From Megasphaera stantonii (GTDB lineage Bacteria; Bacillota; Negativicutes; Veillonellales; Megasphaeraceae): a DNA stretch of 64,000 nucleotides. The position numbers were made by a program, and so were the translations under genes. Below the pieces are notes generated by a model. The model did no database searches. It had not been told where the DNA came from and saw only the letters and a program-made list of their open reading frames with translations. The stretch spans positions 1,426,001 to 1,490,000 of the forward strand of contig NZ_CP029462.1 in NCBI RefSeq assembly GCF_003367905.1. Reading direction: 5' to 3'. Of this stretch, positions 1,187 to 56,053 are shown piece by piece; position 1 is the first letter of the stretch, and each line of letters begins with the position of its first letter.

Positions 1187-2146
1187 ATGAATATTACCGT
1201 CTTAGGCTGCGGCCGCTGGGGCGCTTTCCACGCCTGGTACGCCGACCGCATCGGCCACACCGTCACCTTATGGGGCCGCCCGTCGTCCCGCAATCTGGAA
1301 ACCCTTCGCTGTACGGGAAAAAACGAATACCTGACCCTGCCCTCGTCCATCGCCCTGACCGACGATTTGGCCGACGCCCTGCATAATGCCGACGTCTGCA
1401 TCATTTCCATCAGCGCCCAGCAGCTCCGCGCCTTCGCCGGACAGCTTCGGGAAACGGGATTTTCCCCGTCCCTGCCCTTCATCCTGGCCATGAAGGGGCT
1501 GGAAATCGGCAGCGGCAAGCGCCTCACGACGGTCATGGAGGAAGAGCTGGAGCCCGACGTGCAGACTGCCGTCTGGGTCGGCCCGGGCCACGTGCAGGAC
1601 TTCGTCGCCGGTATGCCGAACTGCATGGTCATGGCCTCCCGCGACATGGACCTGACGCGCCGCCTCGTCGACGTCTTTACCAGCCCCCTCATCCGCTTCT
1701 ACTACGGACAAGACCTCCTGGGCATTGAAATCGGCGCGGCTGCCAAAAACGTCATGGGCATCGCCGCCGGCATGCTCGACGGCGCAGGCCTCACGAGCCT
1801 CAAGGGAGCCCTCATGGCCAGAGGCACTCACGAGCTGTCCGTCCTGATTGAAACGCTGGGCGGCAACGCCATGACTGTCTACGGCCTGAGCCACTTAGGA
1901 GATTACGAAGCGACGCTCTTTTCGGCCCACAGCAACAACCGCCGCTTCGGCGAAGACTTCATCCAGGGCAAGCCCTTCCACAAACTGGCCGAAGGCGTAT
2001 ACACGACGGAAGCTCTCGTCGACCTGTCCCGCCGCGTCGGCGTCGAACTGCCCATTACGCAAGTCCTGTACAGCATCGTCAAGCTCGGCAAGGACCCCCA
2101 CGCCATGCTGGAGCAGCTCTTCCTGCGCTCCACCAAGGCCGAATGA
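1187..2146 (+). CDS. gpsA: NAD(P)H-dependent glycerol-3-phosphate dehydrogenase
   Basis: It reduces dihydroxyacetone phosphate to sn-glycerol 3-phosphate for phospholipid synthesis in the cytoplasm. The 319-residue product has the N-terminal Rossmann signature GCGRWGAFHA (family GxGxxG/A) and the WVGPGH segment. The catalytic lysine is in the IEIGAAAKNVMGIAAG motif, and the C-terminal HLGDYEATLFS and NNRRFGE stretches are typical of GpsA. The length is close to normal (330-340). AGGAGG lies 7-8 bases before the ATG. The gene converges on the next gene with only 2 bases between the two stop codons. No synteny clue points to a special role. Confidence 0.95.
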   Translation: MNITVLGCGRWGAFHAWYADRIGHTVTLWGRPSSRNLETLRCTGKNEYLTLPSSIALTDDLADALHNADVCIISISAQQLRAFAGQLRETGFSPSLPFILAMKGLEIGSGKRLTTVMEEELEPDVQTAVWVGPGHVQDFVAGMPNCMVMASRDMDLTRRLVDVFTSPLIRFYYGQDLLGIEIGAAAKNVMGIAAGMLDGAGLTSLKGALMARGTHELSVLIETLGGNAMTVYGLSHLGDYEATLFSAHSNNRRFGEDFIQGKPFHKLAEGVYTTEALVDLSRRVGVELPITQVLYSIVKLGKDPHAMLEQLFLRSTKAE

Positions 2147-2148
2147 GC

Positions 2149-2907
2149 CTACTCCATAAATCCCTTCCCCTGGTGAATACAGTCGATGGCCTGCTGCAGC
2201 CGCTCCAAGCCTTCCTGTAGTTCCGGCAAATTCCAGGAGTAAAACCGCGGCAGCATCCATTGGGACGTCCACATGATGTAGTGTATATACGTCAGGATAT
2301 CCTTGATTTCCTCCCGGTTATGCCGGGCCGCAAATGTCACGTTGTTATGCAGTAGCTGGCTGCATTTCGAGTCGATTTTCGAAAGGCTGCGGTTGAATTG
2401 GACGATATCCGGCGAGACGCTGCCTTGTATGAGCTGATTAAAGTCCCCCAGTACGTAATACCGCGTCAGGCGGTTGCAGCGGGAAATCTCCCATCGCTCC
2501 ATGAACTGCCGCTTATACGAGGCGGACTTCCGGCGCAGCGCCGCCCCTTCCCGGCTGTCGCCGGCCGTATAGGCTTCCATAGCGTTGGACTCGAAGTTCA
2601 AATACCACAAATACCATTCATAGGTCCGTCCCTTGGCGCATAAATTCGCCAGGTCGGCGTATTTCTCCAGGGAAGACCGCAAAATACAATACAAGGGCCG
2701 CAAATCAAAATAATCGATATCGGACATGCACTTGGCCAAAAAAGAGATCGTCGAATAATCGGCAAATATGGCATGATACAGCCAAAAGGGATAATCCTGC
2801 AGCATCAGCGTGCCGTTGACCGACAGGGAACGGGCCTCATGGGCAATCCTCCTTATCTTTGCCGCCGCTTCGTCCATATAGTGATTCAACACATAACTGG
2901 TCCGCAT
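2149..2907 (-). CDS. Conserved hypothetical alpha-helical protein
   Basis: I do not recognise this 252-residue protein. It has no signal peptide and no clear membrane segment. It is rich in Tyr, Trp and Arg and predicted mostly helical. The central motif RSSLEKYADLANL followed later by CSQLLHNN vaguely recalls DUF5677/HEPN-like proteins, but the similarity is too weak to name. I placed the start at the ATG at 2907, because AGGAGG lies 7 bases before it. The in-frame ATG 15 bases upstream overlaps that Shine-Dalgarno and is unlikely to be used. The gene is monocistronic and convergent with gpsA. Confidence 0.7.
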   Translation of the reverse strand: MRTSYVLNHYMDEAAAKIRRIAHEARSLSVNGTLMLQDYPFWLYHAIFADYSTISFLAKCMSDIDYFDLRPLYCILRSSLEKYADLANLCAKGRTYEWYLWYLNFESNAMEAYTAGDSREGAALRRKSASYKRQFMERWEISRCNRLTRYYVLGDFNQLIQGSVSPDIVQFNRSLSKIDSKCSQLLHNNVTFAARHNREEIKDILTYIHYIMWTSQWMLPRFYSWNLPELQEGLERLQQAIDCIHQGKGFME

Positions 2908-2954
2908 AGCCAGCCTCCTCATCTCGTAATTCGTATCTCTATTGTATCACACAC

Positions 2955-3015
2955 AAAAAACGACACGAAACACAGCAGGGGAAGATCCCCCAGTCCCTGT
3001 GTATCGTGCCGTTTC
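2955..3015 (-). terminator. Rho-independent terminator of the lipoprotein operon
   Basis: A long interrupted hairpin pairs AACGACACGA-ACACAG with CTGTGT-TCGTG-CGTTT and has an inner GGGGA/TCCCC stem. A run of six T follows on the minus strand, after the stop codon of the lipoprotein gene. Confidence 0.75.
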
Positions 3016-3027
3016 CTCTATGCCGCG

Positions 3028-3690
3028 CTACCGCAGTTCATTCTTATCTTCGCCGATGCGCGTGCCGTCCATAAACTTCATCGCCGTCGGCTCCCAGGTG
3101 ACCTTGAGGTCGCTGAGAGGAGAATCATAAGCTTTGACTTCTTTTTCGTTCGTGTCGTTTATATCAGTGTAAATCGTATCGGTCCGCGTCACGCCGGCCA
3201 TGACGGGCATCGTGTCCAGATAATCGGCGCGGAACAATTCATTGCCCGACGCATCGGAAACGACGAACCGCCCTTTGAAGGTCTGAATATCGTTTTGCGA
3301 TATGTTGGCGATGGAAATATCGAACTGTATCTGAGGATGCATGCGTCCGGCCGAGGCGTTCTGGTCGAGGCTCACCTTATCGACGACGGATATCTGCAGC
3401 GTTTGGTTCATCTGCTCCCGGTCCTTTTCAACCTGAGCCTTCCACTTGGCGTACACGTCGAGTATTTCGCCGACGGTCTTTCCTTCATAGGCCTTCTGAT
3501 CTCGCGATTTAGCGAGGGATTGGAAAAATTCCTGCTGATCCTTCGTCAGCGACGTATCGGACTGAATCTGTTTGACGATTTTCGACGATTCGCTGGAATG
3601 CCATACGATGGATTTCGTATCCTTCGAGCCGCATCCCGATGTCAGCATGACCGCAATCAGTGCCGCCGCCAGCCATTTTTTGTTCTTCAT
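3028..3690 (-). CDS. Putative exported lipoprotein of unknown function
   Basis: The 220-residue product starts MKNKKWLAAAL and has a lipobox ending LTSGC at residue 20, so it should be lipid-anchored. The mature part begins with a polar helical region (residues 30-95, with a coiled-coil-like KAQVEKDREQMNQ). A probable beta-sandwich follows (LQISVVDKVSL, FKGRFVVSDASGNELF) resembling FxLYD-type lipoprotein domains, although the exact FxLYD signature is not visible. The gene is 18 bases downstream of the small Imm17-like membrane protein gene and shares its transcript and terminator. Function unknown; a role at the cell envelope is likely from the anchor. Confidence 0.8.
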   Translation of the reverse strand: MKNKKWLAAALIAVMLTSGCGSKDTKSIVWHSSESSKIVKQIQSDTSLTKDQQEFFQSLAKSRDQKAYEGKTVGEILDVYAKWKAQVEKDREQMNQTLQISVVDKVSLDQNASAGRMHPQIQFDISIANISQNDIQTFKGRFVVSDASGNELFRADYLDTMPVMAGVTRTDTIYTDINDTNEKEVKAYDSPLSDLKVTWEPTAMKFMDGTRIGEDKNELR

Positions 3691-6079: not shown

Positions 6080-6285
6080 AACAAATCACGTCTCCTTTAA
6101 TACGCAAAAAATAATTTTTTAGTTTATATTATATCGTGTTTTTCCCATTCCTACAAGCGCAGCACAGCATGGGACACAAGGAAGGCCTCATGCCGAAATA
6201 TTCCGCTGAAATGCTGCCGAATAACGGCCCGATACCTTGCCCGGCCGTCATCGTGACTTGCAAAGTACGCAGACATAGGCCGACT

Positions 6286-7290
6286 TTATTCACGTATCAA
6301 TTCGTTGTCGCACGATCCGGTCTGGGCATACTGGCGCAGATTCTGAATCGTCGTTTCGCATAAATTATAATCAGCCTGATCCGTATAGAAAGCCGTATGA
6401 GCCGTAAATATGACGTTTTCGTAAGACAGCAGTTTTCTAATATCGGAAGCGACGTCTTTTTGAGATCCCGACGATTTTCGCAGCGCTCCTTCTCCTTCGA
6501 TCACGTCGATTCCTAACGCGCCAATCTTACCGCTGTGAAAGCCCCGCAGTACGGACTGCGTGTCAAATAAAGGGCCTCGGGCGCTGTTGACAAGGACGAC
6601 GCCGTCTTTCATAGCCTGAATGGCCTCGTCGTTTACCATATGGTAATTCTCTTTCGTATAGGCGCAATGGAAAATGATCACGTCGGCCTTAGCGTATAAT
6701 TCGTCCAGCGTCACATAGGATGCATACTGGCGTACGTCATTGTTCTCGTAAATATCGTAAGCCAGGATAGCTTTAGGATGAAACCCGCTCAAACACTGTA
6801 TCGTCGTATATCCGATACGGCCGGCGCCGACGATGCCTACGACCATATTGCGAAGTTCCCGCCCTTGCAATCCCGTCGTAGTAAAATTGCCATGTTCTAC
6901 ACGCAGTATCTGCGTCCGCAGCTTGCGAAGAAGGGCCAGCACGATCATCACCGTGTGTTCTGATATGGCGTTGGGCGAATATCTCGGCACATTGGCCCCT
7001 TTGATGCCGTACCTTTTCATCGCCTCTATATTGAGATGATCGTAACCGGCGCTGCATGTCACGACGTATTTGACGCCGCTCTCGGCCAGAGCCTTATAAA
7101 AGGGTTCATCTTCCTTATGATCGCTGTAATAAATAAGGCCTTCGCACTTCGCCTTCTTAACCGTTTCTATCGTATCCAACGCCGCTTCGCAAGGCAGGCC
7201 GATTAACTCTATATCGTCGCATCCAAGGCGTACATACGGCGCAAATCTGGCTGCGCCGCCTCTGACATTGCTGAAAATTCCAACTCTCAT
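6286..7290 (-). CDS. NAD-dependent D-2-hydroxyacid dehydrogenase (D-lactate dehydrogenase type)
   Basis: It interconverts a 2-oxoacid and a D-2-hydroxyacid with NAD(H); candidate substrates are pyruvate, 2-oxoisocaproate or 2-oxoglutarate. The 334-residue product has the Rossmann motif VGIVGAGRIG near residue 148. The catalytic triad of the family is visible: Arg in NSARGPL, Glu in GIDVIEGEG, and His in FTAHTAFYT. I chose ATG 7290 (MRVGIFSN), which follows AGAAAGGATGAG. An ATG 60 bases upstream adds 20 residues that do not look like the family. The gene is monocistronic with a rather AT-rich upstream region. Confidence 0.88.
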   Translation of the reverse strand: MRVGIFSNVRGGAARFAPYVRLGCDDIELIGLPCEAALDTIETVKKAKCEGLIYYSDHKEDEPFYKALAESGVKYVVTCSAGYDHLNIEAMKRYGIKGANVPRYSPNAISEHTVMIVLALLRKLRTQILRVEHGNFTTTGLQGRELRNMVVGIVGAGRIGYTTIQCLSGFHPKAILAYDIYENNDVRQYASYVTLDELYAKADVIIFHCAYTKENYHMVNDEAIQAMKDGVVLVNSARGPLFDTQSVLRGFHSGKIGALGIDVIEGEGALRKSSGSQKDVASDIRKLLSYENVIFTAHTAFYTDQADYNLCETTIQNLRQYAQTGSCDNELIRE

Positions 7291-42940: not shown

Positions 42941-42996
42941 TCTTCACATTTTCTTAACAATTTCTTCATGACTTTTTCATAGGCAGGCAGTATACT
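42941..42996 (+). promoter_or_regulatory. Four 11-bp repeats and promoter of His-rich peptide gene 1
   Basis: Four 11-bp repeats TCTTCACATTT, TCTTAACAATT, TCTTCATGACT and TTTTCATAGGC run from 42941 to 42984. After 6 bases comes a -10 TATACT (42991-42996). The repeats cover the -35 position, a layout typical of activation by an OmpR/PhoB-type response regulator. Confidence 0.75.
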
Positions 42997-43062
42997 ATAG
43001 ATGTACTGAAGAACAGATATACTTTCTTTTACATAACTCACGTATTGCAAGGAGGCGTACCT

Positions 43063-43239
43063 ATGAAACTCTTTTTGGCTAAAAAGCTGCGCGTCGCCCT
43101 GGCCGTCATGGCCTTCGCCGGCTGCACGGCGGCCTTTGCCGCTGACGGACAGGCTGCTTCCGTTCAGGTCAGCCCCGACGCCTATTCCTATTGCCACGAC
43201 GGCTCCGGCCACGGCCATCATCACGGCTGCGGCTGGTAG
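43063..43239 (+). CDS. Small exported His-rich peptide 1
   Basis: The 58-residue product has a cationic, hydrophobic signal (MKLFLAKKLRVALAVMAFAG...). It may be cleaved by signal peptidase I after AAFA (mature ADGQAASVQ...), or at the Cys of AFAGC as a lipoprotein. The mature peptide is about 33 residues and ends YCHDGSGHGHHHGCGW, with five His and two Cys, which is suited to metal binding. GGAGG precedes the ATG. It is paralogous to the next small gene, and the two share a promoter architecture. No known family is recognised. Confidence 0.8.
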   Translation: MKLFLAKKLRVALAVMAFAGCTAAFAADGQAASVQVSPDAYSYCHDGSGHGHHHGCGW

Positions 43240-43256
43240 CGCTGGCGCAGGAGCGT

Positions 43257-43308
43257 AAAAAGCTTTCTCTCCTTATCCATTGCAGATGAGGAGAGAAAGC
43301 TTTTTTTG
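43257..43308 (+). terminator. Terminator of His-rich peptide gene 1
   Basis: AAAAAGCTTTCTCTCCT pairs with AGGAGAGAAAGCTTTTTTT. Confidence 0.92.
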
Positions 43309-43341
43309 TCTATTCTTGCCCGCCCTTTCGGATGATGAAAA

Positions 43342-43397
43342 TCTTCATACTTTCTTCATAACTTCTCCATTCTTTGTTCACAGGCCTCTTATATACT
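43342..43397 (+). promoter_or_regulatory. Four 11-bp repeats and promoter of His-rich peptide gene 2
   Basis: TCTTCATACTT, TCTTCATAACT, TCTCCATTCTT and TGTTCACAGGC run from 43342 to 43385, then 6 bases, then TATACT (43392-43397). Repeat number, phasing and distance to the -10 (50 bases from first repeat) are identical to those of the first peptide gene. Confidence 0.75.
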
Positions 43398-43451
43398 GTA
43401 CTTGTAATCAGGAACACATCATACAATGGATTTCAGCATAGGAGGTATAGT

Positions 43452-43706
43452 ATGAAAACGATCATTATGGCTAAAAAATTCCGGTATATCTTGGCAGTCG
43501 TCGCCTTAGTCGGCTGTACGGCAGCCTTTGCCGCCGACGGAACGGCGGATACGGCTCTGACGAATCAGAGCCAGAGCCAGTATACCTGCCCTTATCATCA
43601 GGACTGCCCTTACGGCGACGGCCGGGGACGCGGCCAGGGACGAGGGCATCACCACCACCGCGGCTACTGCCATCAGAACGACGCCCAGACAGTGACACAG
43701 AAATAA
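43452..43706 (+). CDS. Small exported His-rich peptide 2
   Basis: The 84-residue paralogue of the preceding peptide starts MKTIIMAKKFRYILAVVALVGCTAAFAADG, so the signal region is nearly the same. LVGC could be a lipobox and AFA-AD a signal peptidase I site. The mature part contains CPYHQDCPYGDGRGRGQGRGHHHHRGYCH: four consecutive His, three Cys and an Arg/Gly stretch. AGGAGG precedes the ATG at 43452. Metal binding or redox buffering outside the membrane is a reasonable guess, unproven. Confidence 0.8.
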   Translation: MKTIIMAKKFRYILAVVALVGCTAAFAADGTADTALTNQSQSQYTCPYHQDCPYGDGRGRGQGRGHHHHRGYCHQNDAQTVTQK

Positions 43707-43709
43707 CGG

Positions 43710-43756
43710 ACAAGCTCCCTTCAGCGGATATCCCTCCGGAGGGAGCTTGTTTTTTC
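43710..43756 (+). terminator. Terminator of His-rich peptide gene 2
   Basis: ACAAGCTCCCT pairs with AGGGAGCTTGT followed by TTTTT. Confidence 0.92.
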
Positions 43757-43975: not shown

Positions 43976-45545
43976 GACAGTGTCAAGTTGTTGTGGGTAT
44001 ATATTTGACAGAAACATCTTGGCATGTAAATCCGGCCTTTTAGTATCTAATGTATATGGTGATATCCACTGTTTTGGATATCTTTCATCCATCTTCCGTG
44101 TAATGCGCCTTCGCTCCCCGGCATACGGCAGCTGTGCTCTGCATCATACACGCAGTACGGCAGCCGCCGGCGTCGGCATTGCCTCGTCAATTCCTGTTCA
44201 TTCAGGTCTGGTACTGTATCGGAGTGTTTCTTCGTCAGGCAATCTAAGGCATAGCGCCACACGTCGCCGCCGTTTTCTGCCAGCGTCCGCAATCGGGCAA
44301 TCCGTTCCGCCCCGTCTTTGCTCCAGCCCATTCCACGTGAGCTCAGCCGGGCCGACAGGATATGGCTGACATGACCTTCCGTACTGCTGGCGAATGTCTC
44401 CCGGTTCTGCAGCCAGTCCCGAATCCCTTCCCAATGGTTCAGGATATATTGCTGACCTCTTCGAATCGCCTTTCTCCGATACGGACGGTGCCGTATCTTC
44501 TGTTCAGCTTCCCAGCAGAATTGCTCCCGGTCATTGGCCAGCAAGGCGTCATACAGAGGTTGGATCGTTTCCGTCCCCGCTATCTGCCGCAAGTATTTGA
44601 CAACATGAAATCCGTCCGTGACGCAGCGGCTCTTTTCCAGGTACGACGTCGCGCTCTGTATCCACGCCGCCCCGTCTCCCAGAATCGTAATCTCTGGACT
44701 GTCGTATACGGTTTGGATATATTCCTTGATTTCCTTCCAAGGCATCCCATATCCCGTAAACACCCGTTTGGCTGTCAGTGTTCTCCGTTTTTTTCCCTCC
44801 GCTACTTTCCCTTCATATACATAGGCCAGCCGCAGCTGCCGGCTGTTTCCCTGCTGCATAGCCACATGGTCTTCGTCGGCTTCGATGAACAGTTCGGATA
44901 CCTTCGGCCTCCGTTCCGGCAGGGGAGCCGCCGTATTGGGGATCGTCCCCAACCGGCATAAGACGTTCCGCACGCTCTGTTTGCTTACCGGGACCGGAGT
45001 GGCTACTTGGGCTGCTTTCGCATAACTCATATCCTTGGCATGTTCTGCCATTCGGGCCTGACAGGAAGCCTCGATCCGGCTGTACGCCGGTAGCTGGCAC
45101 CATTCGTCCAGCAGATAGGTGTAGCGGCCCGTGTCTTTCTGTCGGTAATACCGGCGGTGAAAGGTGATTTCTCCAAACGTGGTTACCAAGGTACGCGAAC
45201 GGGCTGTTTCTTTGATCTGATAGGTACGTTGCGGCTTCACCGTTTCATAGATGGCTTCATCGGCCTGTTCTAACATTGCCGACAACACCTCCCGCCCCAG
45301 GTTCTGCACAAACTCTTGTACAGCCAGCGTCACGTCGGTCAGGGACGCCTGGCCCGTTACTAACGATTCCATGTTTGTATTAAAAAAGTCTGTACTGAGA
45401 GAAAGAATCTGTTGTATAATGTTCATGAGAAGGACTCCTTTGCGTGAGATTGTGGTGATTTCATTATACCAAAGAAGTTCCTTCTCTTTTTATATGTTCT
45501 TCACTTTTGTGCAGTAAAGTTTTCCCACAATTATTTTACACTAAC
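43976..45545 (-). mobile_element. ISLre2-family insertion sequence
   Basis: A 1570-bp element inserted in the IS30 transposase gene. The ends GACAGTGTCAAGTTGTTGTG and (reverse) GTTAGTGTAAAATAATTGTG form imperfect inverted repeats, flanked by the 9-bp duplication CCATCTTTC, as expected for ISLre2. Its gene is complete, so it may be recent. Confidence 0.92.
44047..45426 (-). CDS. ISLre2-family transposase
   Basis: The 459-residue protein has the UPF0236/ISLre2 pattern: N-terminal helical region, FGEITFHRRYYRQKDTGRYTYLLDEW, LFIEADEDHVAMQQG (with catalytic-type acidic residues), ILGDGAAWIQSATSYL, VTDGFHVVKYLRQ and the C-terminal GHVSHILSARLSSRGMGWSKDGAERIARLR. The length is normal for an intact copy. 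It fills most of its element and lies antisense to the IS30 gene it disrupts. Confidence 0.95.
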   Translation of the reverse strand: MNIIQQILSLSTDFFNTNMESLVTGQASLTDVTLAVQEFVQNLGREVLSAMLEQADEAIYETVKPQRTYQIKETARSRTLVTTFGEITFHRRYYRQKDTGRYTYLLDEWCQLPAYSRIEASCQARMAEHAKDMSYAKAAQVATPVPVSKQSVRNVLCRLGTIPNTAAPLPERRPKVSELFIEADEDHVAMQQGNSRQLRLAYVYEGKVAEGKKRRTLTAKRVFTGYGMPWKEIKEYIQTVYDSPEITILGDGAAWIQSATSYLEKSRCVTDGFHVVKYLRQIAGTETIQPLYDALLANDREQFCWEAEQKIRHRPYRRKAIRRGQQYILNHWEGIRDWLQNRETFASSTEGHVSHILSARLSSRGMGWSKDGAERIARLRTLAENGGDVWRYALDCLTKKHSDTVPDLNEQELTRQCRRRRLPYCVYDAEHSCRMPGSEGALHGRWMKDIQNSGYHHIH

Positions 45546-45554
45546 CCATCTTTC
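45546..45554. repeat. 9-bp target duplication of ISLre2 (right copy)
   Basis: CCATCTTTC, identical to 43967-43975. Confidence 0.92.
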
Positions 45555-46612
45555 TTTGGAGGAACGTGGCATGATTCAGGCCCTGCATCGCCAGGGGCTT
45601 TCCCTTCGCAACATCGCTGCCGCAGTAGGATGTGCTCATACGACTGTTTTCTATGAACTTCGGCGTGGAACGCCGGATCGGAAAAGCAAGCACGGTCGTG
45701 CCCCTCAGTATATGGCAAAGCGCGGTCAGAAGGCTTATGCAGAGAATCGCAAGAGCTCCAGGAAGCCTTGTAAAATCGATCATGACGACTGCGAGCTGTT
45801 TATCCAATGGATGGTGGAACGAGTCCGCCAGGAACGCTGGTCACTGGATGCCTGCGTTGGCTATGCCAGACAAAATAAGCTATTTACGCCGGAACAGATT
45901 CCCTGTACCAAGACGCTCTACAACATGCTTTGGGCTAACAAACTTCCACTGTCACTCTTCGAGGTACCGCAGGTCTTGAAGCACAAACGCCGCCGCAAAT
46001 GGGTGCGTAAGAACAAACGTATGAAGGGCCGCTCCATTGAGGAACGTCCTGCCGTCGTCGATGATGGTACCGAGATGGGCCACTGGGAAGTGGATACGGT
46101 CGTTGGTCGGCGCGCAGGCCGTGAGGCAGTAGTCTTCACCGCTGTTGAAAAGGTTACGCGCAACTACATCGCTATCCGAATTCCTGGACGTACCTGCGCC
46201 GGCGTTGAAGCTGCTCTTGCACAGTTGCAGGAGCGATATGGCGCAGAGTACTTCAGCCAGATCTTTAAGACGATGACGGCCGATAACGGTCCAGAGTTTG
46301 AGAACTTATCGCAGTTCGAGAGCCTCGGTACTAAGATATACTTTACACATCCGTACAGCTCATGGGAGCGGGCTCAGAACGAACGCCACAATGGCCTGCT
46401 GAGGGATTTCATCCCAAAGGGCATGTCCATGGAGCGGTTCTCTGATGAGGATATCCTGAACATGGCAGATACGCTGAACCAGCGCCCACGGCGTGTTTTG
46501 GGCTACCATACGCCGTCAGAGCTATTTGATGCATTCCTCGATGAAGTTTATGCTAGTGAGTGTGTTTCCTGATTATGGTTGTTCAAATTCAACTTGCAAT
46601 TTACCTAATATA

Positions 46613-49343: not shown

Positions 49344-49452
49344 AGGTGATTCCCCCTCATGGCTTATTGTATCACTTGGCCTTGCCGGCGGCTTGTAATA
49401 TATCTTCAACGAAGAGAATTTCGAGGCCCTTCTCTTTGCCTATACGCCAATG

Positions 49453-49468
49453 TGTTTCACGTGAAACA
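49453..49468. promoter_or_regulatory. parS site 3
   Basis: Perfect TGTTTCACGTGAAACA, in the tail of the truncated dehydrogenase. Confidence 0.93.
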
Positions 49469-49486
49469 TTTTCTCTATAATGATAC

Positions 49487-49532
49487 AAAGCTCTCTGTCC
49501 GCAGATGCATTACTGCGGGCAGAGAGCTTTTT
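49487..49532. terminator. Terminator hairpin near parS 3
   Basis: AAAGCTCTCTGTCCGCAG pairs with CTGCGGGCAGAGAGCTTT, then TT. It resembles the terminator that follows parS 2 in sequence (both carry GATACAA then CTCTCyGTCCGCA). Confidence 0.85.
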
Positions 49533-49761
49533 GCGATGTCTTTCAAACGAGCTGTCGCCGGGATCGGTGACGACGCCGCAGGCCGACACGGCGATTTCGA
49601 TTTCGCCGGGATGAATTTCCGGTACGGCGACTTCTTTGACGACGATCTGACGGGGCCCGGCGAGGACGGCTGCTTTCATCATACGAGATTTCATCATCAT
49701 GCACTCTCCTTCATCGTACAGTATATAAATTGGCGGAATGTCTTGACGTTTGGTCAGCCTT

Positions 49762-49792
49762 ACTATATTATTAAAGTTAGCTTTAAAGTCAA
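49762..49792 (-). promoter_or_regulatory. MerR-type promoter and operator
   Basis: On the minus strand TTGACT (49792-49787) and TATAGT (49767-49762) are 19 bases apart, the long spacer of MerR-activated promoters. The spacer holds the dyad TTAAAG-CTAA-CTTTAA. It drives the truncated dehydrogenase and lies next to the divergent merR-type gene. Confidence 0.85.
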
Positions 49793-49851
49793 TCTTGTCT
49801 TTCAAAAAATTTGAAAAAATTTTACTCAGGCTTCTCTAAGGAGGTTTTCCT

Positions 49852-50283
49852 ATGTATACGATTCAGCAGGTGGCGAAGATGACCCATATCCCGGCGACGA
49901 CGCTGCGCTACTACGATAAGGAAGGGCTGCTCCCCTTTTTGGAACGGCGCGAGTCGGGCTATCGGGCCTTTTCCGACGTCGATTTAGCTATGCTGCAGGT
50001 GCTGCAGTGCCTGAAAGCGACGGGCATGTCTATCAGCGAGATGAAGCAGTTTTCCCAATGGGTGCAGGAAGGCGACAGCTCTTTGAAGGAGCGGTACGAC
50101 TTATTTGTCCGCCGCAAGGAAGCTGTAGAGCAGCAGATCGCCGAGCTGCAGAAATCGCTGGAAGTCATCAATCACAAGTGCGACTACTATCGCCGGGCCG
50201 TCGAGGCCGGGACGGAAAAGCACATGATGGGCAAGGACACCCTGCCCTACGCCGACGAATTTCTCCACGGCGGCGGAAAATAG
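49852..50283 (+). CDS. MerR-family transcriptional regulator (AdhR-like)
   Basis: The 143-residue regulator has the MerR HTH at the start (YTIQQVAKMTHIPATTLRYYDKEGLLPFLERRESGYRAFSDVDLAMLQVLQCLKATGMSISEMKQF) and a coiled-coil dimer helix (RKEAVEQQIAELQKSLEVINHKCDYYRRAVEAG). Its layout matches AdhR-type members that respond to aldehydes and activate alcohol dehydrogenase genes. A 19-base-spacer promoter with a dyad lies in the divergent gap. Its natural target appears to be the now truncated dehydrogenase. AAGGAGG precedes the ATG. Confidence 0.9.
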   Translation: MYTIQQVAKMTHIPATTLRYYDKEGLLPFLERRESGYRAFSDVDLAMLQVLQCLKATGMSISEMKQFSQWVQEGDSSLKERYDLFVRRKEAVEQQIAELQKSLEVINHKCDYYRRAVEAGTEKHMMGKDTLPYADEFLHGGGK

Positions 50284-50305: not shown

Positions 50306-50342
50306 TAGTTGACTGCATAGACACATTACGGAGGTGTATCCT

Positions 50343-51041
50343 ATGGTCCCCTACTCTATCCTCATCGTCGACGACGACGAGAAATTGTGCGCCCTGCTGC
50401 GCTCCTACTTCGAGCAAGAGCAATGCCTGGTATATATTGCCAATGACGGCATGACGGCCGTCTCGATGGTACGGCGGCACGAGCCGCAGATTATGGTGCT
50501 GGATTTGATGCTGCCCGTCATGGACGGCTTTGAAGTCTGCCGCCGCGTCCGCCAGTTCAGCGACGTCCCCATCATCTTCTTGACGGCCAAGGACGACGAG
50601 CTGGACCGCCTCGTGGGGCTGAATATCGGCGCCGACGATTACGTGACGAAGCCCTTCAACGTCAAGGAACTCATCGCCCGCGTCCACAGCCTGCTGCGCC
50701 GGGCCCGGGGCGAAGTCATTCAGAGCTCGTCTTGCTACGCTGTCAGGGATTTGCTCATCGACAGGGACAAGTTCACCGTGTTCCGCAGCGGCGAGCCCAT
50801 CGTGCTGACGCCGACGGAGTTCAACATCCTCGACGCCCTGGCCTCTTCGCCGGACCGGGTGTTCAGCCGCATGCAGATCATGGAAAAGGCCCAGGGCGGC
50901 TACGGCTTTGAAGGCTATGAGCGGACCATCGATACGCACGTCCGCAACCTGCGCAAAAAAATAGAGCCGGAGCCGGCCAAGCCGACGTATATTCTGACCG
51001 TATACGGCATCGGCTATAAGTTTTCCGGAGGCGGCCTATGA
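50343..51041 (+). CDS. OmpR/PhoB-family response regulator
   Basis: The 232-residue protein has a receiver domain (1-120) with acidic pocket Asp10/Asp11, phospho-acceptor Asp54 in IMVLDLMLP, FLTAKDD, and Lys in DYVTKPFN. The winged-helix output domain (about 135-230) contains VLTPTEFNILDALASSPDRVFSRMQIM and ERTIDTHVRNLRKKIEP. ATG 50343 lies 8 bases after GGAGG. It overlaps the sensor kinase gene by 4 bases. Being of the PhoB type, it should bind phased 11-bp repeats like those before the His-rich peptide genes, though the link is inferred. Confidence 0.93.
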   Translation: MVPYSILIVDDDEKLCALLRSYFEQEQCLVYIANDGMTAVSMVRRHEPQIMVLDLMLPVMDGFEVCRRVRQFSDVPIIFLTAKDDELDRLVGLNIGADDYVTKPFNVKELIARVHSLLRRARGEVIQSSSCYAVRDLLIDRDKFTVFRSGEPIVLTPTEFNILDALASSPDRVFSRMQIMEKAQGGYGFEGYERTIDTHVRNLRKKIEPEPAKPTYILTVYGIGYKFSGGGL

Positions 51042-52153
51042 AACGGACAGACAGCTTAGTATTCCGCCTGACGGCGATGGTCTTCATCCTGCTGGCCGTG
51101 ACGATTGCCGTCATCCTCTTTTTGGTAAACAGCCAGATGGATACGCATTTCACCCAATACCTGCAGATGGCTCCCCGCCGGGGAATGGGCATGGGGCATC
51201 ACATGATGCGCGGCGCAGCGGAGCTGCAGTACGTCGAGTCCATCCATCGCTCCCTCCTGTGGGTCGGCCTGGGCATGACGGTCATCAGCGTCGGCGTCAG
51301 CTACATCGTCGTGCAGAAGCTCGTCCGTCCCCTTCTCTCCCTGACTGAGGCCGTGCGTTCCGTACAGGAAGGGAAATTCGGGCAGACCGTACCTGTAGAA
51401 CGGATGGACGAAGTGGGCATCCTGGCCAAGACCTTCAACGACATGTCGACGGAGCTGGAGCAAAACGAAACCATGCGCCGCCACCTCTTTGCCAGCGTAG
51501 CCCACGAGCTGCGGACGCCCTTGGCGATTATCCAGGGAAACTTGGAAGGCATGATCGACGACGTCATTCCGGCCAACAAAAAGATGTTTTTGTCCATGGA
51601 AGACGAAGTCCTGCGGCTGGGGCGATTGGTACAGGATTTGAACGATTTGTCTTTAGCGGAAATCGACAAGCTCGTCCTCCATAAGGAACGGGCCGATATA
51701 AACATACTGCTGGAACGGGCCGTCAGCATGCTCCAGCCCTTGTGCGACGAAAAGGAGCTGACCGTCCGGCTGCACCTATGCCCTGAGCTGCCGAATGTCT
51801 CCATCGACGTGGACCGGATCAACCAAGTCGTCTACAATATTTTGAACAACGCTATCCGCTATATCAACCGGGGCGATACGATAGCCGTAACTACGGAGCG
51901 GGCCGTCAAGGAAGGAAAAGAGTACGTTCTAGTCTCTATTGCCGATACGGGAAATGGCATTTCTCCTGAAGACTTGCCCCATATTTTCCAATATTTCTAC
52001 CGCGGCGAAAAATCGCGGAGCCGTAAGAGCGGCGGCAGCGGCATCGGGCTGGCCCTGGCGAAGCAGTTCGTCGTCAGCCACGGCGGCCTGCTTGACGTGG
52101 AAAGCGAAGTCGGCAAGGGCACGACCTTTTACATATACCTTCCCCTGGGCTGA
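51038..52153 (+). CDS. Sensor histidine kinase with Met/His-rich outer loop
   Basis: The 371-residue kinase has TM1 (about 10-30), a short outer loop (about 34-70) rich in Met, Gly, His and Arg (QMAPRRGMGMGHHMMRGAAE), and TM2 (about 72-92). HAMP (95-147), HisKA (phospho-His156 in ASVAHELRTPLAII) and HATPase_c with NNAIRY, DTGNGI and GSGIGLAL motifs follow. The loop is a plausible site for sensing Cu, Ag or similar ions, but no ligand is proven. It is the partner of the response regulator it overlaps. Confidence 0.92.
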   Translation: MKRTDSLVFRLTAMVFILLAVTIAVILFLVNSQMDTHFTQYLQMAPRRGMGMGHHMMRGAAELQYVESIHRSLLWVGLGMTVISVGVSYIVVQKLVRPLLSLTEAVRSVQEGKFGQTVPVERMDEVGILAKTFNDMSTELEQNETMRRHLFASVAHELRTPLAIIQGNLEGMIDDVIPANKKMFLSMEDEVLRLGRLVQDLNDLSLAEIDKLVLHKERADINILLERAVSMLQPLCDEKELTVRLHLCPELPNVSIDVDRINQVVYNILNNAIRYINRGDTIAVTTERAVKEGKEYVLVSIADTGNGISPEDLPHIFQYFYRGEKSRSRKSGGSGIGLALAKQFVVSHGGLLDVESEVGKGTTFYIYLPLG

Positions 52154-53052: not shown

Positions 53053-55641
53053 TTATTTTACCAGCTCGTATCCGGCGTCGGTAATGACCTTGGCGAATTC
53101 GTCCGTCGTAATGTCCTTCGTCGCCGTGACGTCGGCCGTCTTGCCTTCCAGGTCGACGGTTACGTCCGTTACGCCGTCCATGGCGGCTAAGGCGTCGTGA
53201 ACGTGTTTCTGGCAGTGCTGGCACATCATGCCTTCGATGTGTAATGTTGTTTTCATAGCAGGTTCTCCTTCCTTCTGTTCAGATATAGGTGTATTTGGAG
53301 TTTCATGTGATGTTTCACGTGAAACAGTTCCAGCAGAATGGTTGGGCTTAAAGAAGCGCAGGCGCAGGGCGTTTAGGACGACGCAGACGCTGCTCAGGCT
53401 CATGGCCGCCGCCCCGATCATGGGGTTCAGCTTGAGGCCGTAGGCCGGGTAAAACAGGCCAGCCGCCAACGGAATGGCGATGACGTTGTAGAAGAAGGCC
53501 CAGAACAGGTTTTCTTTGATGTTTTTGATGACGGCCTTGCTGAGGCGGACGGCGCTGACGGCGTCGAGGAGGTCGCTGCGCATGAGGACGGCGTCGGCGC
53601 TTTCGATGGCGACGTCGGTCCCGGCGCCGATGGCGATGCCTACGTCGGCTTTAGCCAGGGCCGGCGCGTCGTTGACGCCGTCGCCGATCATAGCGACGGT
53701 GCGCCCCTGGGCCTGCAGCTCGGCGATGTGCCGTTCCTTATCCTGAGGCAGGACGCCGGCGATGACCTTGGGAATGCCCAAGCGCTTGCGGATGGCTTCG
53801 GCCGTGCGAGCGTTGTCGCCAGTCAGCATGACCACGTCGATGCCCATAGCGGCAAAGCGGGAAATGGCTTCGGCGCTGGTGGCTTTTTCTACGTCGGCGA
53901 CGGCGATGATGCCGATGACGCCGCTGTTATCGGCGAATATGAGGGGCGTCTTGCCCTGATCGGCTAAGGCGTCGAGACGGTCTGTATAGCTGCCGATGGC
54001 GATGCCCTGCTCTGCCATGAGGGCGGCGTTGCCGGCGTAATAGGTTTTCCCATCGGCGGAGGCGATGACGCCCTTTCCAAAGACGGCACGGAAATCAGAT
54101 ACGGCCTTCGGCGCGATGCCCCTTTCTTTTCCGCAGGCTACGATGGCTTCGGCCAGGGGATGTTCGCTCCCCTGCTCCATGCCGGCAGCCAGGGCGAGGA
54201 GCTCTGTTTCGCTGCAGGTCAGGGCCTGTACATCGGTGACGCGGGGCTTGCCTTCCGTAATGGTGCCGGTCTTGTCCATGACGACGGTGTCGATGGCGTG
54301 AGCCCGTTCCAGGGCTTCGCCGGACTTGATGAGGATGCCGTTTTCCGCGCCCTTCCCCGTGCCGACCATAATGGCGACAGGCGTCGCCAGCCCTAAGGCG
54401 CAGGGGCAGGAAATGACCAGGATGGAAATGCCGATGGAAAAGGCGAATTCCAAGTCGGCTCCCATGGCGAAGTACCACAGGGCTGTAACGGCGACGGCCA
54501 AGGTAATGACAGCCGGGACGAAGATGCCGGCGACGGCGTCGGCGATTTTGGCGATAGGCGCTTTGCTGGCGCTGGCTTCATCGACGAGGCGGATGATCTG
54601 GCTGATCGTCGTATCGTCGCCGACCCGTTGGGCCGTGACGTGAATGTAGCCTGACGTATTGATCGTCGCCGATGTGACCTTGTCGCCGACCTGTTTTTCG
54701 ACGGGAATGCTTTCGCCCGTAATGGCCGATTCGTCAATGCTCGTCGTGCCCTGAGACACGATGCCGTCGGCAGGAATGCGCTCGCCCGGGCGGACGACGA
54801 TTTCATCGCCGACGGCTAAGTCTTCGACGAGAATGACCGTTTCGACGCCGCCGCGCAGGACCGTCGCCTCCTTAGGCGCTAACTTCATGAGCTTTTCAAT
54901 GGCCGCGCTGGTCTTGCCCTTGGCCCTCGTTTCCAGATACTTGCCTACGGTGATGAGGGTGACGATCATGCCGGCCGACTCGAAGTACAGGTTGGCGCTA
55001 TAGGTCTGTACCAAGGCCCAGTCGCCGTGGCCCATGCCCCAGCCCATGCGGAAGATGGCGAAGGCCCCGAAGGCCGCCGAGGCCATGGAGCCCATGCCGA
55101 CGAGGCTGTCCATGTTGGGCGCGCCGCGAAGCAGGTTGGAAAAGCCGTTGATGTAGTACTTGCGGTTCAAATACATGATCGGCAGGATGAGCAGGAACTG
55201 TGCGAAGGCGAAGGAAATGGCATTTTCCGGGCCGTCGAATACTGCTGATATAGCTGACGGGACGGGAATTCCCAGATGAGAGGCCAGCATATGATGCATG
55301 GCGATGTAGACTGTAGGAATGAGAAAGACGATGGACCACAGGAGGCGCCGCTTCATCTGCCTGACTTCCTGCTCGGCCGTATTGGCCGGACTTGCCTGCG
55401 GCGAAGCGCCCTTTGTTCCGGCTTGCCCGCCGGCCAGGGACGCGCCGTATCCGGCCTTGACGACGGCGTCTATAATCGCCTGGCTCGTAAGGATCGTTTC
55501 GTCGTAATCGACCTGCATGCTGTTGGTCAGCAAATTGACGCTGGCCTTTTCTATGCCCTCCAGCTTGGAGACGGCTTTTTCGACGCGGGACGAGCAGGCC
55601 GAGCAGGACATGCCCGTTACCTGATATGTTTCATGCTTCAT
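53053..55641 (-). CDS. copA: Copper-exporting P1B-type ATPase fused to a C-terminal CopZ-like domain
   Basis: It pumps Cu(I) out of the cytoplasm. The 862-residue protein has an N-terminal HMA domain (GMSCSACSS), six to eight membrane helices with the CPC motif ([12 protein letters not shown]), phosphorylation site [11 protein letters not shown], and hinge [22 protein letters not shown]. After a linker there is a second HMA domain ([15 protein letters not shown]) at about 797-862. Such a C-terminal HMA is unusual; CopZ is normally separate. The linker residues TVSRET are encoded by a perfect parS site. AAGGAG sits 8 bases before the Met that opens the second HMA, so free CopZ may also be made. 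It lies downstream of csoR. Confidence 0.95.
53311..53326. promoter_or_regulatory. parS site 6, inside the copA coding sequence
   Basis: Perfect TGTTTCACGTGAAACA; read on the minus strand within the copA frame it encodes VSRET of the inter-domain linker. Confidence 0.93.
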
Positions 55642-55653
55642 GCAATCACTCCC

Positions 55654-55968
55654 TTACTTCATCAATTTTTGCAGGGTACAGACGAGCTCATCGACGACGT
55701 CGTCCTTCCCCTCGCGGATATCGTGGACGACACAGCTCTTGATGTGCTGGCCGAGGAGCTCCTTGTTGAAGGAATTCAGGGCCGACTGGATGGCCGTGAC
55801 CTGCATCAGGATATCGATGCAATAGCGGTCCGTCTCCACCATGCGCTTGATGCCCCGTACCTGCCCTTCAATCCGGTTTAACCGGGAAATCAGTCGTTTA
55901 TATTCCTTCTCGTCGCGGTGCTTCAGCTTCACGCCTCCGCAGCAGCTCGTATCGTTCATAGAATCCAT
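55654..55968 (-). CDS. csoR: CsoR-family copper-sensing repressor
   Basis: CsoR represses copA until Cu(I) binds. The 104-residue protein shows DEKEYKRLISRLNRIEGQVRGIKRMVETDRYCIDIL, and has the Cu(I) ligand set Cys50, His75 and Cys79 (RYC, then GQHIKSCV). Extra Cys at 9-10 in the N-terminal tail are not part of the standard site. ATG 55968 is 7 bases from AGGAGG. It is 12 bases upstream of copA. A CsoR-type operator lies between the -35 and -10 of its own promoter. Confidence 0.95.
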   Translation of the reverse strand: MDSMNDTSCCGGVKLKHRDEKEYKRLISRLNRIEGQVRGIKRMVETDRYCIDILMQVTAIQSALNSFNKELLGQHIKSCVVHDIREGKDDVVDELVCTLQKLMK

Positions 55969-56000: not shown

Positions 56001-56053
56001 TATACCCCATACCGGTATATAAACATAATATACCCAGTAAGGGTATATGTCAA
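56001..56053 (-). promoter_or_regulatory. csoR-copA promoter with CsoR operators
   Basis: On the minus strand TTGACA (56053-56048), 17 bases, TATTAT (56030-56025). The spacer contains the perfect palindrome TATACCC-AGTAA-GGGTATA (56029-56047, plus-strand reading). A second, less perfect one, TATACC...GGTATA (56001-56019), lies downstream of the -10. This is the expected layout for CsoR autorepression. Confidence 0.88.

Follow-up and report, generated by a model that had tools for sequence, protein, structure and literature searches.

Genes of the SilE/PcoE type are controlled by CusRS-type pairs, and PhoP promoters of Bacillus subtilis carry four TTAACA-like repeats with an 11-bp period that overlap the -35 position. 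The closest described system found for the locus presented here is, by analogy, copMRS of Synechocystis. In this organism, an exported Met/His-rich protein and an RND export system are under the control of a two-component pair that responds to copper, and the putative CopR site is TTCATN4-5TTCAT (PMC4182526); CopM is described as periplasmic and extracellular and as binding Cu(I), and its loss renders the cells copper-sensitive (PMC4335983). SilE is disordered when free and has been termed a molecular sponge (PMC5008109), and AgrR of Cupriavidus metallidurans is an OmpR-family silver-resistance regulator, for which a role as type II activator was proposed (PMC7380067).

The DNA analysed (the window) is a stretch of 64,000 nucleotides from Megasphaera stantonii (class Negativicutes), corresponding to positions 1,426,001-1,490,000 of the genome. 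It encodes two short exported-type peptides, each behind a block of four direct repeats (the box), and, further downstream, a two-component pair and copper-type genes. We consider it probable that the two peptides are box-controlled outputs of a copper/silver-type envelope system.

Two peptide genes and their promoters

The features of the peptide region are as follows.

42941..42984, plus strand: box of promoter P1, a putative response-regulator box of four imperfect 11-bp repeats (TCTTCAC..., TCTTAAC..., TCTTCAT..., TTTTCAT...)
42991..42996, plus strand: -10 element of P1, TATACT, 10 nt 3' of the last TTCAY
43063..43239, plus strand: peptide 1, 58 aa, with signal region and Gly/His/Cys tail (...CHDGSGHGHHHGCGW)
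43257..43305, plus strand: terminator-like hairpin after peptide 1, inverted repeat (arms 43257-43277 and 43285-43305) with T run
43342..43385, plus strand: box of promoter P2, four imperfect 11-bp repeats
43392..43397, plus strand: -10 element of P2, TATACT, 10 nt 3' of the last TTCAY
43452..43706, plus strand: peptide 2, 84 aa, with paralogous signal region and Cys/Arg-Gly/HHHH tail
43710..43756, plus strand: terminator-like hairpin after peptide 2, inverted repeat (arms 43710-43727 and 43733-43750) with T run

The original prediction of two small paralogues of 58 and 84 residues with a common signal region was borne out by the open reading frames found at these positions. Each is preceded by a good Shine-Dalgarno sequence, as judged by eye, and begins with a signal-peptide-like region ending in AFA-A; the 5' parts of the two genes are 72% identical across 96 aligned nt, and 29 aligned codons contain 8 synonymous and 10 nonsynonymous differences. 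The mature parts contain no Met, with 5 His and 2 Cys in peptide 1 and 6 His and 3 Cys in peptide 2, and for His plus Cys past residue 25 the two peptides rank first and second among the 64 open reading frames of at least 50 aa that were retained in the window by our own gene caller. No Pfam or NCBIfam family was found over cut-off for either peptide. The predicted peptides share with SilE/PcoE-type sponges their small size, signal-like start and richness in metal ligands, and no family homology to these was detected in Pfam or NCBIfam. Since a terminator-like hairpin is located 3' of each gene, the two genes are probably transcribed separately, as short transcripts.

A third copy of the signal region is located elsewhere in the genome (about 394,589-395,755; positions 2090-3256 of locus L005). 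It is 67% identical to peptide 1 over 37 aa and lies in frame ahead of an apparent alpha/beta-hydrolase gene with an internal ribosome-site-like sequence; no box was found upstream of this copy.

The half-site of the box is TTCAY, repeated with a period of 11 bp (N6 between half-sites), and the predicted four 11-bp repeats starting 50 bases before TATACT were measured with the same spacing at both promoters. These had also been called identical, which holds for their arrangement and spacing but not for their sequence, as the P1 and P2 blocks agree at 33 of 44 positions. The pattern of four TTCAY at 11-bp spacing, with up to three mismatches, matches three times in the window (the two blocks and one overlapping shift), compared to a mean of 0.02 matches in shuffled versions of the window, none of which reached three in 100 shuffles. 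A search of the whole genome (2.65 Mb, one contig), which had been suggested together with the prediction, returned the P1 and P2 blocks as the only matches at one mismatch and thus no equally good block elsewhere; the rest of the genome contains two unrelated places with three mismatches, and the reversed control pattern matched once. A chance origin of the repeats was rejected on the basis of the shuffles and the reversed-pattern controls. No box with up to three mismatches was found at the window's own regulator genes.

Regulator pair, copper genes and counterparts in congeners

The following features are located downstream of the peptide genes.

44047..46572: two insertion-sequence-type genes, by Pfam (UPF0236, 44047-45426, minus strand; HTH_38/rve, 45556-46572, plus strand, presumably IS30-like)
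50334..51041, plus strand: OmpR/PhoB-type response regulator, the proposed activator (profile matches, orthologue comparison)
51038..52153, plus strand: sensor histidine kinase with a short Met/His-rich extracytoplasmic loop (GMGMGHHMM)
53053..55641, minus strand: copper-type P1B ATPase (CopA-like), containing HMA domains (scores over cut-off with TIGR01511 and below cut-off with the equivalog CopA model)
55654..55968, minus strand: CsoR-type metal-sensitive repressor (PF02583 over cut-off; best NCBIfam match, RicR, below cut-off)
56030..56046, no strand assigned: palindrome ATACCC-AGTAA-GGGTAT upstream of csoR, which we take to resemble a CsoR operator

The gene order in the window is symporter, panC, panD, box, peptide 1, box, peptide 2, the two insertion-sequence-type genes, unrelated genes, regulator, kinase, a 186-aa open reading frame, convergent copA, and csoR; the peptides are separated from the regulator by 6.6 kb, with the insertion-sequence-type genes standing in between. 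The true start of the regulator, from comparison with orthologues, is probably the ATG at 50343. Just 5' of the response regulator (49440-50283), a MerR-family regulator gene (NmlR-like, below cut-off) is faced by a shortened-looking zinc-alcohol-dehydrogenase start.

The pair was assigned to the OmpR type by the Pfam domains Response_reg and Trans_reg_C of the regulator and the HAMP-HisKA-HATPase architecture of the kinase. The curated heavy-metal models TIGR01387 and TIGR01386 were not reached (151.3 of 279.2 bits and 151.9 of 292.55 bits, respectively), and the CusS sensor domain was below cut-off in the window kinase (E 0.25); for this reason, the pair is not filed as a member of the CusRS family and is claimed only to work like one. 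A linkage to copper/silver export is given by copA and csoR close by and by CusA/CzcA-type islands in relatives. Maximum-likelihood analysis placed the window regulator in one group with the regulators of box-bearing loci (99/97 support), and the other OmpR-type regulators of the same genome, including the PhoB-like ones, outside this group; the identity of the window regulator is 47-76% to the box-locus regulators versus 26-41% to five own paralogues. From the five-paralogue tree, own_L052 was left out and own_L056 was dropped as an extreme long branch; a second tree comprised six own paralogues in a partly different set, excluding own_L055, and both trees were built without L168_5648 (shortened gene call) and the duplicates L112_1351 and L115_2421.

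The kinase is present in eight of 14 congeners. Five of these eight (G003, G006, G009, G012, G013) have the order symporter, panC, box, exported peptide, DUF6803, regulator, kinase, with convergent copA, the symporter being of the sodium/bile-acid type. G003 and G006 carry a nucleotidyltransferase-like gene pair between DUF6803 and the regulator, and G006 also a reverse-transcriptase-like gene; csoR past copA is complete in G009, G012 and G013 and partly seen in G006, and the sequence examined for G003 ends before the csoR position. The order in G011 is panC, panD, box, regulator, kinase, with copA and csoR, and its DUF6803 gene is found at a separate location (L110) with a box of its own, while G001 and G002 have box, DUF6803, regulator, kinase. 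DUF6803 is absent from the genome of M. stantonii; the insertion-sequence-type genes at 44047-46572 occupy, after peptide 2, the place that DUF6803 has in the congeners.

The absence of the repeats from orthologous loci, which would have spoken against the prediction, was not observed, as the peptide gene is preceded by a box in each of the five congeners in which this slot holds a peptide (G003 and G006, 2 mismatches; G009, G012 and G013, 4 mismatches). At up to four mismatches, ten loci of the family contain exactly one block each, 5' of a peptide, DUF6803 or regulator gene, and the repeats and the -10 element are kept in an alignment of 11 promoters (P1 and P2 of the window and nine from related genomes).

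The slot peptides of the five congeners are Cys/Tyr/Gly-rich and of exported type (71-99 aa). In an alignment of these five with the window pair, AFAA is invariant, and all seven peptides have one Tyr, one Cys and one Gly of the tail in common. Direct but weak matches of peptide 2 (E 0.001-0.016) were obtained to the slot peptides of G009, G012 and G013, on the same strand and in the same frame, and 17 of the 22 base differences between the G003 and G006 genes are at third codon positions, which indicates that the slot peptides behave as genes. The ligands change between species, with 8 Cys and no His in the mature G003 peptide and 4 His and 2 Cys in that of G009; judged from these predicted sequences, high His content is not the conserved property of the slot peptides. 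Other matches of the protein search were mostly signal-peptide similarity to larger proteins of other families, and other loci from the direct peptide search looked like reading-frame noise inside known genes; both were discarded.

The box in related genomes and alternative readings

The box was searched for at up to two mismatches, blind to gene function, in 100 genomes (M. stantonii and 99 relatives), which yielded 148 matches versus 41 for the reversed pattern. A kinase orthologue (E cut-off 1e-60) is present in 34 of these genomes, M. stantonii included, for which 77 matches versus 8 reversed were obtained; the excess is weaker in the 66 genomes without the orthologue (71 versus 33), 32 of which have a match. 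Blocks were found in 23 kinase-bearing genomes (66 blocks in total), and half of them (33 blocks, in 15 genomes) are located within 5 kb of the kinase orthologue, with 0.37 expected under uniform placement; within 10 kb, there are 38 blocks in 16 genomes (0.71 expected), and the window itself belongs only to this wider class. The other 33 blocks, e.g. all five in G071, are either separated from the kinase by a distance of over 5 kb or located on a different contig. A kinase search of named genomes yielded at least 80 loci and was filled with kinases of other phyla. The loops of the orthologous kinases of G015 and G016 are not Met/His-rich.

The spacing to the -10 element was determined for 89 distinct site windows, merged into 71 blocks. 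TANNNT is located exactly 10 nt past the last half-site in 57 of the blocks (61 of the site windows), compared to 13 blocks for the next best offset, and the reversed pattern occurs at one site in these loci. The composite motif (box, 10 nt, TATANT; up to one mismatch) matched 56 times in a search of 250 genomes of the class, of which 31 contain it, and the reversed control yielded no match; M. stantonii and G011 are the only Megasphaera among the 31. Since boxes, some of them with this spacing (family f4), also occur in genomes that lack the kinase orthologue, similar boxes may be recognised by a further regulator. In family f4 (L118, L119, L124, L125), tandem TTCAT blocks were observed 5' of exported proteins, which are Met-rich in L125 and Met/His-rich in L124.

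Downstream genes were read for a chosen part of the box matches. The genes of the relatives were called with a simple script of our own, Pfam and NCBIfam were used for some proteins, and the names RseC-like, OMF, multicopper-oxidase-like and Met-rich were given by eye. The box is located upstream of the OmpR-type regulator gene in G011, G082 and G086, and upstream of DUF6803, regulator and kinase in G001 (3 mismatches), G002 (2) and G016 (3). Also found behind boxes were outer-membrane efflux (OEP) proteins, accompanied by HlyD/CusB-type adaptors and by pumps of the CusA/CzcA family (two of which pass the NCBIfam cut-off), and, in G079, a CCGG/His-rich protein that contains an HMA-like domain and does not reach the cut-off of the CopZ models. 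Boxes further precede DUF6803 proteins (Pfam confirmed two of them; tails in Megasphaera with Met/His runs like MDHSQMNHDQM), Met-rich exported proteins, and exported peptides of 60-63 aa ending in NEHSGHHM, NEHSSHHG or HAGHHATS (G064, G062 and G086, respectively). Genes without an evident metal link comprise SHOCT, DedA-like, chemotaxis-receptor-like, FAD-enzyme, Lgt-like, repeat-protein and rhodanese-like genes. For the 31 sites in the 13 newly examined genomes among the 31 with the composite motif, the first gene is DUF6803, Met-/His-rich, outer-membrane efflux or an OmpR-type regulator at 19 sites, a count by eye without matched control promoters; the remaining 12 first genes are four RseC-like genes (by eye) and eight others, including L264, in which the regulator is the second gene after the box. 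This co-localisation of the box with kinase orthologues and copper/silver-type genes across the class supports the predicted metal-responsive peptide system and its candidate activator, the OmpR-type pair of the window.

Some further proteins behind boxes were recorded. In G160 and G151 (L277, L278, L298, L300, L302, L306), their N-termini are long Met/Gly/Asn runs (MMMMNQGMGGMNQGM...), after which a single membrane helix is likely, and multicopper-oxidase-like genes are located further downstream in L293 and L298. RseC-like genes with a DCENCGSCPGN motif (L280, L301, L303, L305; by eye) have the regulator after them in L280, L301 and L303, and a chemotaxis-receptor-like gene in L301, L303 and L305. 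The box at L098 (about 1868) and L116 (about 2454) precedes an exported protein of repeated blocks, e.g. IDHNPTHYNK, which has 209 aa in G064 and no obvious metal link.

The box might instead be a Pho box, through which a PhoB/PhoP-type regulator induces the peptides at low phosphate: the two blocks fit four TTHAYA at 1 and 2 mismatches, the four TTNAYA-like half-sites (about -60 to -22) match the geometry of B. subtilis PhoP promoters, and PhoB-like regulators are encoded in the genome, as are two pstB genes that pass the family cut-off. However, the box that a Pho regulon would share with the pst promoters of the genome was not found there: no block of four TTCAY with fewer than five mismatches is located in two 12-kb pst regions, which makes phosphate control unlikely, and TTTACA/TTACAT-type repeats are found upstream of both pst clusters instead. 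In addition, the PhoB-like regulators of the genome are outside the group of box-locus regulators, and the genes beside boxes are of metal type far more than of phosphate type, so that we regard this reading as highly improbable. The TTTACA/TTACAT-type repeats (L066, about 6163-6215; L067, about 6322-6370) are themselves a candidate Pho box for the genus. A general envelope-stress response (BaeSR/CpxAR-like), with the peptides as small envelope helpers and an incidental metal link, is unlikely, since a linkage to copA/csoR, to pumps of the CusA/CzcA type, to HMA-type proteins and to Met/His-rich tails was found repeatedly, although the top NCBIfam scores of the pair are spread over MtrA, BaeR, WalK and BaeS, all below cut-off, and the RseC-like, SHOCT, rhodanese-like and DedA-like downstream genes are not metal-specific.

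Runs such as HHHH and HGHHHG, as carried by the peptides, readily bind Ni and Zn in general, and the CusA/CzcA model cannot split copper from zinc/cobalt pumps; the signal could hence be a different metal (Zn, Ni or Co), with the His runs as its ligands. We consider this very unlikely, as the adjoining ATPase passes the copper-type model TIGR01511 and has a CsoR-type repressor beside it, and Met-rich loops or tails, typical ligands of Cu(I)/Ag(I), are found in many loci. Finally, the peptides could be lipoprotein-like or surface peptides that do not bind metal and are under copper control for another reason. A possible lipobox (LVGC) in peptide 2, a Cys in the signal region of peptides 1 and 2 and of the third own paralogue, and tails that differ strongly between species would fit this reading. 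However, the five congener peptides have Phe at the position of this Cys and AFAA does not vary, which favours ordinary signal-peptide cleavage, and the three tail residues named above (Tyr, Cys, Gly) are shared by all aligned peptides; we therefore judge it improbable, if the least so of these alternatives. From the linkage of the box in relatives to a copper/silver-type sensor pair and metal genes, it is most likely that the pair is part of a copper-defence system.

Proposed system and comparison with described systems

For the copper/silver-type envelope system, we propose that the short Met/His loop detects an excess of Cu(I) or Ag(I) on the outer side of the inner membrane for the kinase (51038-52153), which would phosphorylate the OmpR-type regulator (50334-51041). 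The regulator may bind the four direct half-sites as two dimers beside the polymerase and switch on the peptide genes, and two short exported peptides would be expressed from separate promoters. Their Cys/His-rich, probably unfolded tails could bind metal, either periplasmically or extracellularly, as a putative sponge and act in parallel with CopA in the inner membrane, for which CsoR would control copA from the cytoplasmic side.

On balance, we lean towards a wider reading, with less confidence than for the two peptides themselves: a class-wide, undescribed copper/silver regulon of Negativicutes with a rigid switch (four TTCAY half-sites, 11-bp period, -10 element at 10 nt), the outputs of which would be orphan families, i.e. 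DUF6803 with Met/His tails and a syntenic slot peptide that is remade or replaced between species while the switch is kept. The slot in Megasphaera would then hold mini-metallothionein-like secreted peptides with changing ligands (His/Cys here, Cys/Tyr elsewhere). Among the best-ranked matches in the open-licence literature, no published copper envelope response or regulon of this kind in Negativicutes and no publication naming DUF6803 were found. The box thus offers a testable candidate regulon for a group of gut and environmental anaerobes, its linkage suggests a role for DUF6803, and the slot represents a case of a conserved promoter driving a fast-changing peptide. Megasphaera species are gut bacteria. 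As piglets are raised on high-copper diets (PMC13064011, which does not mention Megasphaera), the system may bear on survival under dietary copper.

The promoters of B. subtilis PhoP have the same layout of four half-sites with an 11-bp period as the Megasphaera box, but with TTAACA rather than TTCAY; further, the pst regions of M. stantonii lack the block of four TTCAY, and the neighbours of the box elsewhere are of metal type. The AgrR box is an inverted repeat (ATKACANNNNTGTMAT), in contrast to the four direct repeats in Megasphaera (PMC7380067). SilE and PcoE are small periplasmic metal-binding proteins, to which the Megasphaera peptides, with predicted export and predicted metal binding, are comparable; the peptides differ in having no Pfam or NCBIfam family over cut-off, mature parts without Met and very short tails, and in belonging to a different bacterial class. 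The likeness to copMRS/copBAC of Synechocystis lies in a copper-responsive pair with an exported metal-ligand protein and in a direct repeat of TTCAT, as in the Megasphaera box. However, CopM is larger (recombinant residues 25-196, with two DUF305 domains) than the Megasphaera peptides of 58 and 84 aa, which have no Pfam family; copM is in one operon with copRS, whereas the Megasphaera peptide genes appear to be monocistronic; and the Synechocystis site comprises two half-sites with N4-5, whereas the Megasphaera box comprises four with N6.
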